Source: a virus. Taken from it: a DNA stretch of 23,786 bases. The DNA lies in IMG/VR virus record IMGVR_UViG_3300010885_077336, positions 1-23,786 of that record. One strand, given 5' to 3'. The notes beneath the pieces are model-generated. The model saw nothing but the letters and a program-made list of their open reading frames with translations. It searched no databases and had not been told where the DNA came from. Shown here one piece after another: positions 3,469-7,843 of the stretch. Positions within the stretch are counted from its first letter, which is position 1, and the number at the start of each line of letters is the position of its first letter. Made by a program: the position numbers and the translations under genes.

Positions 3469-4774
3469 ATAGTGGCATCATGCCACGGAACATGTGACGC
3501 TCAAACGCACTTTCGTTTGGTCTAATGCTTGGTCCCGGAGCAAATATTGGTGGAGAAGTTGTAACTGATGGTGGAGCAGCTGCAATGTTATTAATTATGG
3601 TTGGGTTACTACCAAACTGAGACTGAAGATTTTGGTTTTCACTTTGCAAATCCTGAACCTGTCTACTAAGCATAGGTCTTGGTTTAACTTCAGCAGGCGC
3701 AGAACCACTGCTAAAAGAAGTTCCGTTAGGGTTTGTATCAAATAAATTAGTACGATTTTTTACACCCTCAATTAGACCGTAACCTGCACCCAAAGCACCT
3801 CCAACAACTGCGCCGCCTGGGCCAAGAATACTTCCTAACATGGCACCAGTGCCAGCATAACCTGCAACATCTGCAGCTATGCCCACACCAGCCCCAATAT
3901 TTTCATGTCCATGTTCAGCCAACTGATCAGCAGCAACATTACCTAAAATATTAGTAGCTATTCCAGCAATACCTAATTTACCACCTAATTTTAAATTTTG
4001 TCCTATTCTTTGTTTTAGTGTTGGTTTAGCCGAGGGCCCTTTTTTGGAACCTGGTCCTGTTTTATCGTTACCACCCCCAGCACTTGGACCCCCTGGGCTA
4101 CCTGGAATGTCTGGCAGGCCCGGTAAATTTTTAATGCCCATGGCAGCTGCTAATGAACCAATGGCTGCACCTAAAACACGACCTAAGCCTTCTATGGCTC
4201 GACCAATGCCCTCGGCTATACCACCTATGGCTGTACCTATGCCCTGTATGGCTGCACCTATGCCACTGCTACCCGAACCAACTGATTTAGTTTCAGCAGT
4301 TCCAGCAGTAGTAGCGCTTTCATTTACAGCATAATTTTCTGGGCTCAGTGTTGGAACAAATGTATTTTTAGTTGATGCTGATGCCGGAGCAGGTGGTATC
4401 ATGCTAGCCATGCGAGCCTTAGCTCCGGTATTAGCAGTACCAGCCAGGCGACGATTTAGGGCATCTATGCTTCTGCGTAATCCTATACTATCAGTATGAT
4501 TAGCAGTCTGTAATTTTTTTAGAGTGTCTTCTAACTCATGAAATATTGTTTTCTGTTCTTCGGTGGCGTCTTTTAATAACTCTTCGCGTTTGCGAGTCTG
4601 ATTAACGAAATCTTCAAAGATCTGGGCACCACTCTTAGCGCCAGCAGAAGTAGCTGCTCCAGATAGAGCATCTACCAGATCTTTAAATTGATCTGGGTTA
4701 AGTCTAACCAGAGCTTCTTCCTTTTGATCTAGTCTTTGCTGACCAGCAATTAGATCTTTTAATTTAATGGCCAT
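3467..4774 (-). CDS. Coiled-coil and glycine-zipper protein, possible tape measure
   Basis: This 435-residue protein was not recognised by family. Residues about 50-115 are charged and helical (coiled-coil-like). Residues 171-205 are a 7-residue repeat (GIGAAIQ, GIGTAIG, GIAEGIG, RAIEGLG and so on), followed by a Gly/Pro linker. Residues about 265-335 are a long hydrophobic Gly/Ala segment, and a short coiled coil sits at about 370-390. Helical N-terminus plus hydrophobic segments is a pattern seen in tail tape-measure proteins, and the gene lies downstream of the gp26/gp51-like chaperone pair, where many phages place the tape measure. Against this, a holin-like gene intervenes and T4 gp29 is longer (590). 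A membrane-active lysis or injection protein is the alternative. The start overlaps the preceding stop (TAATG). Confidence 0.75.
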   Translation of the reverse strand: MAIKLKDLIAGQQRLDQKEEALVRLNPDQFKDLVDALSGAATSAGAKSGAQIFEDFVNQTRKREELLKDATEEQKTIFHELEDTLKKLQTANHTDSIGLRRSIDALNRRLAGTANTGAKARMASMIPPAPASASTKNTFVPTLSPENYAVNESATTAGTAETKSVGSGSSGIGAAIQGIGTAIGGIAEGIGRAIEGLGRVLGAAIGSLAAAMGIKNLPGLPDIPGSPGGPSAGGGNDKTGPGSKKGPSAKPTLKQRIGQNLKLGGKLGIAGIATNILGNVAADQLAEHGHENIGAGVGIAADVAGYAGTGAMLGSILGPGGAVVGGALGAGYGLIEGVKNRTNLFDTNPNGTSFSSGSAPAEVKPRPMLSRQVQDLQSENQNLQSQFGSNPTIINNIAAAPPSVTTSPPIFAPGPSIRPNESAFERHMFRGMMPL

Positions 4775-5160
4775 TATTCAGCGTATCTTGCATTAGGTGT
4801 TGGTTCATCTGCAGGTGTGGCTGCTGCCTGTGTCCAGGTATCGGTAGTTTTGGTTCCCAGCGATGCTCCACCATTGGGATCAATACCTTTATTAATCATG
4901 GCTTCTTTTTCCTTGCCACGAGTCCAGGCAGCTATGCCTAAAATACCACCCATGGCCAAATGATATAGTCCGCCGCCCTGTAAGGTCAGGGGCGTCCATG
5001 AGGTCACAGCCTGACCTGGATTCCAATATTGTAGGATGTTAAAAATAATTGGTCCTACTATAAAATCAAACCAAATTGTAGCCATGTATGTAATAGCCAT
5101 CATAGGACGCCATTTTTTGGTCATCCAATCTTCTGTAGATAGTGCTGGTTTAGTTGCCAT
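4774..5160 (-). CDS. Holin-like two-span membrane protein
   Basis: This 128-residue protein has two likely transmembrane helices, residues about 20-43 (MMAITYMATIWFDFIVGPII) and about 63-80 (GGLYHLAMGGILGIAAW). The second is followed by a basic/acidic RGKEKEAM stretch and a hydrophilic tail. Pattern and spacing, with WRPM before the first helix and a Gly-rich second helix ending in RGKEK, resemble the 3TM-type phage/GTA holin families. It would form lesions in the inner membrane for endolysin release, but no endolysin gene is adjacent, so this is tentative. It could instead be a tail-associated membrane protein. An AAGGAA ribosome site precedes the ATG. The stop is coupled to the next start. 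Confidence 0.65.
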   Translation of the reverse strand: MATKPALSTEDWMTKKWRPMMAITYMATIWFDFIVGPIIFNILQYWNPGQAVTSWTPLTLQGGGLYHLAMGGILGIAAWTRGKEKEAMINKGIDPNGGASLGTKTTDTWTQAAATPADEPTPNARYAE

Positions 5161-5161
5161 T

Positions 5162-5350
5162 TTAAGTTCCTTTCTGTTGTTGTAAACGCTGGTTCTCTTC
5201 CTTGAGATAATTAACCAACAACATAATATAAATTTCCCTCTCCCACGGCATCATATTTTCTAACTCTGTTAAACTATACTTATGAAACTGCATCAGATTA
5301 AAGTTAGTCTGATAATAGTTCAGAAGTGTCTCGTGTGAAAGGATTAACCG
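5162..5350 (-). CDS. gp51-like tail-assembly chaperone extension, made by -1 frameshift
   Basis: The -1 frame relative to gp26 is open from 5383 to a TAA at 5162-5164. Read through the slippery site it adds 62 residues to the first 233 of gp26, giving a 295-residue fusion. The added part is amphipathic and helical: NYYQTNFNLMQFHKYSL, then ELENMMPWEREIYIMLL, then LKEENQRLQQQ. A Y-x-L-x-E-L-E-x-M-x-P-x-E-R-E pattern like this is typical of the downstream part of tail assembly chaperones, and its position after gp26 suggests the gp51 role (baseplate hub assembly). There is no ATG, GTG or TTG until an ATG at 5293-5291, which lacks a purine-rich ribosome site. Translation by frameshift is inferred. 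The coding potential is clear from the open frame and protein-like composition. Confidence 0.75.
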   Translation of the reverse strand, partial: RLILSHETLLNYYQTNFNLMQFHKYSLTELENMMPWEREIYIMLLVNYLKEENQRLQQQKGT

Positions 5351-6048
5351 AAAAAACTTTGCAAACCCTCCAGGGCTGCGGTATTATCTGATTCACATTT
5401 GATACACTTAAAACTAATTTCATGTCTAAGCTTAGGTAAAGTAATAAAAAACTTTTCTAGTTTACTAAAATTACCTGGACTTAAATTCTCTACAAATTCA
5501 ATCAAATCAGCTGGACTATAATCCAGAGCTGAGTACATGTCATCATCTTTCCAAATAGTATTAATACACTTGGCAATTAAACCAATGATCTGATCTGCAT
5601 CAGGGTTAGTAACACCTCTGAGACTGGTTAGACTTTCCAGATCTGGATCTGTTAATGTTACCAATAATCCATGCCCTAGATCAACTTTATGATCATGATC
5701 CGGATATTTTTTAACTTCAACTGTGGTTAGATCTAATTGAGCATCCTGTTTATTACCACATTCACCACAGGTTAAAACCAGATCTATGTTCTCACCCACG
5801 CTGTTGGCTCGGAGTTTTAAAAATAAAAACTCTAGATCATAGGCTGGTAATTTACGTACATCTAGTTTGTTAAATGTACATTCAAACACCAGATCAATGA
5901 CTGCCTGTGTTTGTTGTTCTAATCCTGCGTTTTGTGCAATTAATAATTGCTTTTGCTCTCGGACCAAAAATGGTCGGTATTTTATGACTTCACCAGTACT
6001 AGGTAATTCTGTAGAATAAACCGGCACGTCAATTTTGGGTAATGCCAT
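5344..6048 (-). CDS. 26: gp26 baseplate hub protein
   Basis: This 234-residue protein matches the T4 base plate hub family that includes gp26 (T4: 208). The opening MALPKIDVPVYSTELPSTG, then IKYRPFLVREQKQLLIA, is the hallmark N-terminus. Middle motifs include LPAYDLEFLFLKLRANSVGE. Two CxxC pairs, C94/C97 and C215/C218, could form a zinc ribbon bridging the domain. gp26 acts in hub assembly in the cytoplasm. An AGGAG ribosome site overlapping the previous stop precedes the ATG. The 3' end carries a -1 slippery heptamer leading into a second ORF, so this is likely the short form of a two-product gene. Confidence 0.88.
   Translation of the reverse strand: MALPKIDVPVYSTELPSTGEVIKYRPFLVREQKQLLIAQNAGLEQQTQAVIDLVFECTFNKLDVRKLPAYDLEFLFLKLRANSVGENIDLVLTCGECGNKQDAQLDLTTVEVKKYPDHDHKVDLGHGLLVTLTDPDLESLTSLRGVTNPDADQIIGLIAKCINTIWKDDDMYSALDYSPADLIEFVENLSPGNFSKLEKFFITLPKLRHEISFKCIKCESDNTAALEGLQSFFG
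5350..5356 (-). promoter_or_regulatory. -1 ribosomal frameshift slippery heptamer
   Basis: On the minus strand, gp26 ends agT TTT TTC ggt taa. T TTT TTC fits the X XXY YYZ rule for simultaneous -1 slippage of two Phe tRNAs, and it lies two codons before the stop. The zero and -1 frames are both open only over about 40 bases, and the heptamer falls inside that window. A possible downstream hairpin (ATCAGA/TCTGAT, 5313-5308 with 5297-5292) starts about 36 bases later, farther than usual for a stimulator. Confidence 0.7.
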
Positions 6049-7390: not shown

Positions 7391-7843
7391 TTATTTATCT
7401 AATCCCAGCTCTTTTTCTGTGATAATCTCAAATTTCCAGCCACGATCTTCACAGAAGTTCTGGGCGGCTTTCCATTTAGCCTGATTCACACCCCAGGTAT
7501 AGACTTCCTGCACAAACTGTCGAGTGCGACGCTTGGGGATGTCTGGTGGCTGAGTGAATTTAAGAGGTTTGATCTCTATGAGATATTTCTTGGTGCGTCC
7601 AGAGCTTTCCTGAATCTTCATGTAAAAATCCACAAAGTATCTGTGTACTTTTCCATCGACCGGTGATAAATAAGGTATGACGACTTCTTCGCTTCCCCAT
7701 TCCAAAACATTGGTATTGTTATCACAATACTTCATGAACTTAAACTCCCACATGCTGCGATATATCACATTGGTGGGGTTGCCAGTATATTTGGCTGGAT
7801 TTAAAACTCGATATCGACCTTTATAAACATTATTAGAATACAT
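7391..7843 (-). CDS. 4: gp4 head completion nuclease-fold protein
   Basis: This protein has 150 residues, the same length as T4 gp4 (gp50/65), which is needed to complete the head so tails can attach. Motifs fit its restriction-endonuclease-like (TnsA N-terminal) fold: YRSMWEFKFMKYCDNN with E33, IPYLSPVDGKVHRYFVDFYM with D72, and YLIEIKP with E90-x-K92, a PD-(D/E)xK-type catalytic set. The remainder (KRRTRQFVQEVYTW...KWKAAQNFCEDRGWKF) is the usual helical C-terminus. It is the first gene of the leftward operon, 28 bases downstream of a perfect T4 late promoter on the minus strand. Confidence 0.92.
   Translation of the reverse strand: MYSNNVYKGRYRVLNPAKYTGNPTNVIYRSMWEFKFMKYCDNNTNVLEWGSEEVVIPYLSPVDGKVHRYFVDFYMKIQESSGRTKKYLIEIKPLKFTQPPDIPKRRTRQFVQEVYTWGVNQAKWKAAQNFCEDRGWKFEIITEKELGLDK

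Follow-up and report, generated by a model that had tools for sequence, protein, structure and literature searches.

In a 23,786-base virus fragment from IMG/VR (hereafter, the window), gene 26 very probably gives rise to two tail-assembly chaperones by -1 ribosomal frameshifting, a short TAC-N and a long TAC-NC that carries a gp51-like extension. This reading, made from sequence comparison, is strongly supported by the conservation of the layout among homologues and by the natural fusion of the same two parts in T4 gp51.

The 3' end of gene 26 and its extension

The features involved are the following.

5344 to 6048, minus strand: gene 26, 0-frame short product (TAC-N), 234 aa, PF12322 / phrog_150
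5350 to 5356, minus strand: slippery heptamer T TTT TTC, register X XXY YYZ, 0-frame codons AGT TTT TTC
5344 to 5346, minus strand: 0-frame stop TAA, one codon past the heptamer
5162 to 5350, minus strand: extension in the -1 frame (TAC-C / gp51-like domain), running 62 codons past the slip, then stop TAA at 5164-5162
5366 to 5371, minus strand: GGAGGG, internal Shine-Dalgarno-like sequence and possible stimulator, 9 nt upstream of the heptamer, confounded with conserved Glu-Gly codons

The gp26 short form contains a PF12322 domain (E=4.7e-54, 183.8 bits against a Pfam cut-off of 24.5), matches phrog_150 at 1.8e-60 in the PHROG search and gives an AlphaFold2 model with a pLDDT of 89. On the minus strand, the last codons of the gene read GGT TTG CAA AGT TTT TTC GGT TAA. 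As the original prediction had it, an X XXY YYZ heptamer is positioned at 5356-5350, in the 0-frame register and ahead of the 0-frame stop. However, TTTTTTC is found 10 times in the window against 4.7 expected. Taken alone, it is unremarkable, and the case therefore rests on the comparison among homologues.

On the minus strand, the -1 frame stays open between 5383 and 5165 and leads to a predicted TAC-NC of 295 aa with the junction S-F-F-R-L; the open frame, its 62 further codons and the length of the fusion were all as first proposed. The extension had also been called gp51-like, which holds: the PHROG search pairs it with phrog_634 (gp51, ‘baseplate hub assembly catalyst’) at 3e-29. A further match, to the C-terminus of phrog_150 (7e-8), suggests that one protein holds the extension in some gp26-family members. 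In the window, the first ATG, GTG or TTG met in the -1 frame is the methionine codon within NLMQ, which lies about 20 codons downstream of the slip and has no evident Shine-Dalgarno-like sequence ahead of it, in agreement with the original prediction.

In the proposed mechanism, most ribosomes would end at TAA and release the 234-aa gp26, while a fraction would move one base backwards at T TTT TTC and read on to yield the gp26-gp51 fusion. The C-terminal helical domain of the fusion would then correspond to the ‘gp51’ that annotation lists as a separate small gene. Short chaperones would be abundant and long ones fewer, as in lambda G/GT. By analogy with that system, slippage would set their ratio, and the two would act as chaperones in assembly of the baseplate hub or the tape measure. 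For the window phage, we infer slippage, its efficiency and the assembly role from this arrangement.

Conservation of the heptamer and of the -1 frame

Homologues were compared in a set of 44 non-redundant, single-copy gene 26 genes with less than 85% amino-acid identity. An in-register T TTT TT(C/T/G) is present in 43 of the 44 (37 TTTTTTC, 5 TTTTTTT and 1 TTTTTTG), and in each of these 43 a homologous extension in the -1 frame follows, 58-70 codons long when counted from the slip site. This comparison, proposed with the original prediction, bears it out. The heptamer-bearing genes belong to cyanophages, KVP40-like phages, Emmerichvirinae, and Rhizobium/Agrobacterium, Stenotrophomonas and Desulfovibrio phages. 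Annotated phages with both heptamer and -1 ORF include S-PM2, P-SSM2, S-N03, S-PRM1 and C48C1, Vibrio phages D485 and phi-pp2 (KVP40 group), Aeromonas phages phiWae14 and avDM6, Stenotrophomonas phage Yut2, Agrobacterium phages OLIVR5 and Atu_ph04, Rhizobium phages AF3 and RL2RES, and Desulfovibrio phage 7757. IMG/VR homologues with a complete 3' end also keep the gp51-like -1 ORF and the in-register poly-T heptamer. Scans for distant loci, made with single proteins, returned few loci.

The -1 ORF is conserved at the protein level, with 45-70% identity between diverged phages. On the basis of codon usage elsewhere in the genes, the probability of a heptamer in all 43, given the amino acids, is about 1e-23 with lineages treated as independent, a value that overstates the case because the lineages are related and fewer are independent. 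At the sequence level, what exceeds chance is the in-register conservation among homologues, not the heptamer itself.

The extension could instead be a separate small gene with its own start, translated by coupling or by re-initiation past the gp26 stop. GenBank indeed lists gp51 as a separate gene in S-PM2, P-SSM2, OLIVR5 and others, and S-PM2, P-SSM2, D485, KVP40-like phages, AF3, RL2RES and Yut2 have an ATG that lies directly at the gp26 stop or close to it. However, most IMG/VR homologues, like the window, lack a near start codon, and most of the 43 homologues have no ATG, GTG or TTG in the extension's first ten codons. The place of the annotated gp51 start varies from one relative to another, and in OLIVR5, phi-pp2 and C48C1 it truncates the conserved domain. 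In addition, a separate gene leaves unexplained the heptamer, the conservation of the -1 register and the full gp26-like front domain of T4 gp51. Because starts are absent or inconsistent, a separate small gp51 gene is rejected as a general rule, and we hold it to be improbable. A possible start for the downstream ORF itself, which the original prediction had regarded as contrary evidence if joined to a ribosome site, does occur in some Vibrio, Rhizobium and Stenotrophomonas phages, where an ATG overlaps the gp26 stop and a separate small product could therefore be made; the window has no such start nearby.

Transcriptional slippage on the T6 run, producing mRNAs with one extra U, is slightly less probable still. 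The motif is a T homopolymer, and one more U would lead into the same fusion frame. Nevertheless, the run is only six long in nearly all homologues, and a six-T run is short for slippage of bacterial RNA polymerase. Moreover, the run always occupies the X XXY YYZ register and the base in seventh position varies, as tandem tRNA slippage needs. In several lineages, 3' RNA hairpins are also observed at the distance usual for -1 frameshifting: 12 of the 43 slip sites are followed by a hairpin with z below -2, compared with 15 of 215 control windows, and those immediately downstream of the slip site in S-PM2, P-SSM2, S-PRM1, OLIVR5 and S-N03 are strong.

With respect to stimulation of the proposed ribosomal frameshift in the window, the 3' hairpin is weak (z=-1.3) and is not claimed as a stimulator. 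The GGAGGG sequence pairs with the anti-SD at -9.8 kcal/mol, a value matched by about 5% of codon-shuffled versions. In the homologues, an SD-like peak is located 10-18 nt upstream of the heptamer (mean -6.0 against -5.0 kcal/mol expected). A stimulatory role is not claimed here either, because conserved Glu-Gly codons explain most of the signal. As a separate observation, the strong stem-loops after the slip in the marine cyanophages S-PM2, P-SSM2 and S-PRM1 (loci L084, L116 and L082) also bury the annotated gp51 ATG of S-PM2.

Genes 26 and 51 of T4 and the two-gene layout

In T4, genes 26 and 51 are separate and divergently transcribed. T4 gp26 consists of the PF12322 domain only, whereas T4 gp51 (249 aa) is made of a complete PF12322 domain (3.9e-52) and the extension (phrog_634, 1.2e-23). 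Gp51 of Citrobacter phage Moon likewise has the PF12322 domain and the extension. Therefore, T4-group phages encode the short and long proteins as two genes: T4 gp26 and gp51 are homologous to the short and long forms, respectively, and require no frameshift, unlike the single gene of the window. Across these phages, a long form combining a PF12322 domain with a TAC-C domain is thus encoded, by a predicted frameshift or by a second gene. The original prediction had taken unlinked homologous genes as an argument against a frameshift; the T4 genes are indeed unlinked, yet gene 51 encodes the whole fusion and not the extension alone.

The predicted fusions align without gap over the junction with T4, Moon and Aes508 gp51 (FFRL versus VFKL). 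Profile comparison relates window-type gp26 to T4-type gp51 with an E of 3e-11 over 191 columns, and the AlphaFold2 models of gp26 and gp51 show the same order of elements, with added C-terminal helices in gp51. Since T4 gp51 unites these two parts naturally, it is independent support for the predicted fusion product. Fold and sequence searches of the PDB gave no match; for the T4-type gp51 model, Foldseek returned none at E <= 0.001. Both T4 gp26 and gp51 are listed as hub-assembly chaperones, and gp51 is reported to be essential, being required but absent from the particle (PMC3004832), which fits a chaperone role. In Moon, gp27/gp28 (L087:54-1692), described by the depositors as ‘tape measure chaperone, GT-like fusion’, was considered and set aside, as the evidence points to the gp26/gp51 pair.

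The T4 group also serves as a control for the view that the heptamer is a by-product of Phe-Phe conservation and the downstream ORF a decayed remnant: Phe-Phe is conserved in most T4-group gp26 too and T-rich codons suit AT-rich phages, but there it is mostly written TTC TTT and never as the heptamer, whereas T TTT is chosen in 43 of 43 heptamer-bearing homologues against the codon-usage expectation given above, and the -1 ORF is conserved as a protein matching the C-terminus of T4 gp51, so that Phe-Phe conservation alone is ruled out and this view is hardly credible.

Among 21 complete genomes, PF12322 is present in two copies in T4, Moon, fDHCT2, Aes508, Campylobacter phage F379 and Vibrio phage SRILMA, and in one copy in all others, including every genome checked that has the frameshift layout. 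This layout is also found inside Straboviridae, in the KVP40 group and Emmerichvirinae, which suggests, with weak tree support, that the two-gene state is derived; in the tree, the short and long T4-group copies join weakly (81/64), on long branches. In SRILMA, separate short and long PF12322 genes stand in tandem (L115:814-2156), and in F379 they are about 10 kb apart (L110:1455-2195 / L138). These two phages may represent a duplication independent of that of T4. Aeromonas phage TSW001 (L113:2480-2600) has one PF12322 copy and no heptamer, its gene ending AGA CTT TTC ACT GTT TAA. The tetranucleotide T TTC may serve as its slip site, or the gene may be split. A strong hairpin, AACCCCTC...GAGGGGTT, is observed past the TSW001 stop, with a 3' arm that could double as the ribosome site of an ATG.

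Tentatively, one frameshifted gene could have become two genes at least twice, in the T4 group and in the SRILMA/Campylobacter lineage, with TSW001 in a third state that has neither heptamer nor second copy; we find this plausible, if somewhat short of probable. If true, this chaperone family would offer a natural series of experiments in replacing recoding by gene duplication.

Relation to known systems and neighbouring genes

Gp26/gp51 is likened to lambda gpG/gpGT by arrangement; sequence kinship was not detected in the searches made here. The slippery site of lambda G/GT is G GGA AAG, in contrast to T TTT TTC in the window. P2 makes its tail chaperone pair gpE / gpE+E' by a -1 frameshift as well, there at a poly-T heptamer (T TTT TTG), although its protein family appears unrelated to gp26 as far as tested. 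In the lambda-type placement, the chaperone lies between the tail tube and tape measure genes. Upstream of the window chaperone, the neighbour is a tail-tube-like protein (phrog_45); downstream, a small holin-like ORF is followed by a 435-aa protein that is not an established tape measure protein. The large downstream proteins in the window mostly have function-less or lysis-like annotations, with some tape-measure profile matches.

The abstract of the 2022 article by Vladimirov, Gautam and Davidson reportedly names T4 genes 26 and 51. Earlier, G-T frameshifting in long-tailed phages had been reviewed as widely conserved ‘except T4’ (2016 review, PMC5009743). Tail chaperone genes of T4-like phages were then identified (Vladimirov, Gautam and Davidson 2022, Virology 566:9-15). 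As this work is cited in later articles, some T4-like phages do not frameshift but have a short TAC gene together with a long fusion one (PMC10885494), and polyT-containing sequences are -1 slippery signals in T4-like TAC-N genes (PMC12846349). To the extent of these citations, the remark that accompanied the original prediction, that for gene 26/51 of T4-like phages no description of such a frameshift was known, has been overtaken. Since the arrangement was published in 2022, the window, which differs in being a fragment of an uncultivated IMG/VR phage, is a clear and well-supported new example and not a new phenomenon. The small additions made here are the match between copy number and slippery-site presence, the possible second two-gene lineage and the TSW001 exception.

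The gp26/gp51 arrangement explains the standing of T4 as an exception to the lambda-type G/GT scheme, the key step being, from the same citations, that of 2022. It also bears on annotation. In hundreds of cyanophage and related records, small ORFs labelled ‘baseplate hub assembly catalyst’ or ‘gp51’ are more aptly treated as the C-terminal portion of a gp26-gp51 fusion, and ‘gp26’ in such records as the short form.

Among structure predictions in BFVD, the window gp26 model has matches in Bacillus phage SP-15, Ralstonia phage phiRSL1 and others, annotated as baseplate or uncharacterized proteins; more tail chaperones of the gp26 family may be hidden among them. The holin-like ORF (4774-5160, minus strand; phrog_3427, 5e-6, with GTA_holin_3TM just below cut-off) begins right after the extension stop, between the chaperone and the 435-aa protein. 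Inside the tail gene cluster, a 150-aa protein (7391-7843, minus strand) matches the TnsA-like endonuclease domain (PF08722, 4.7e-24).
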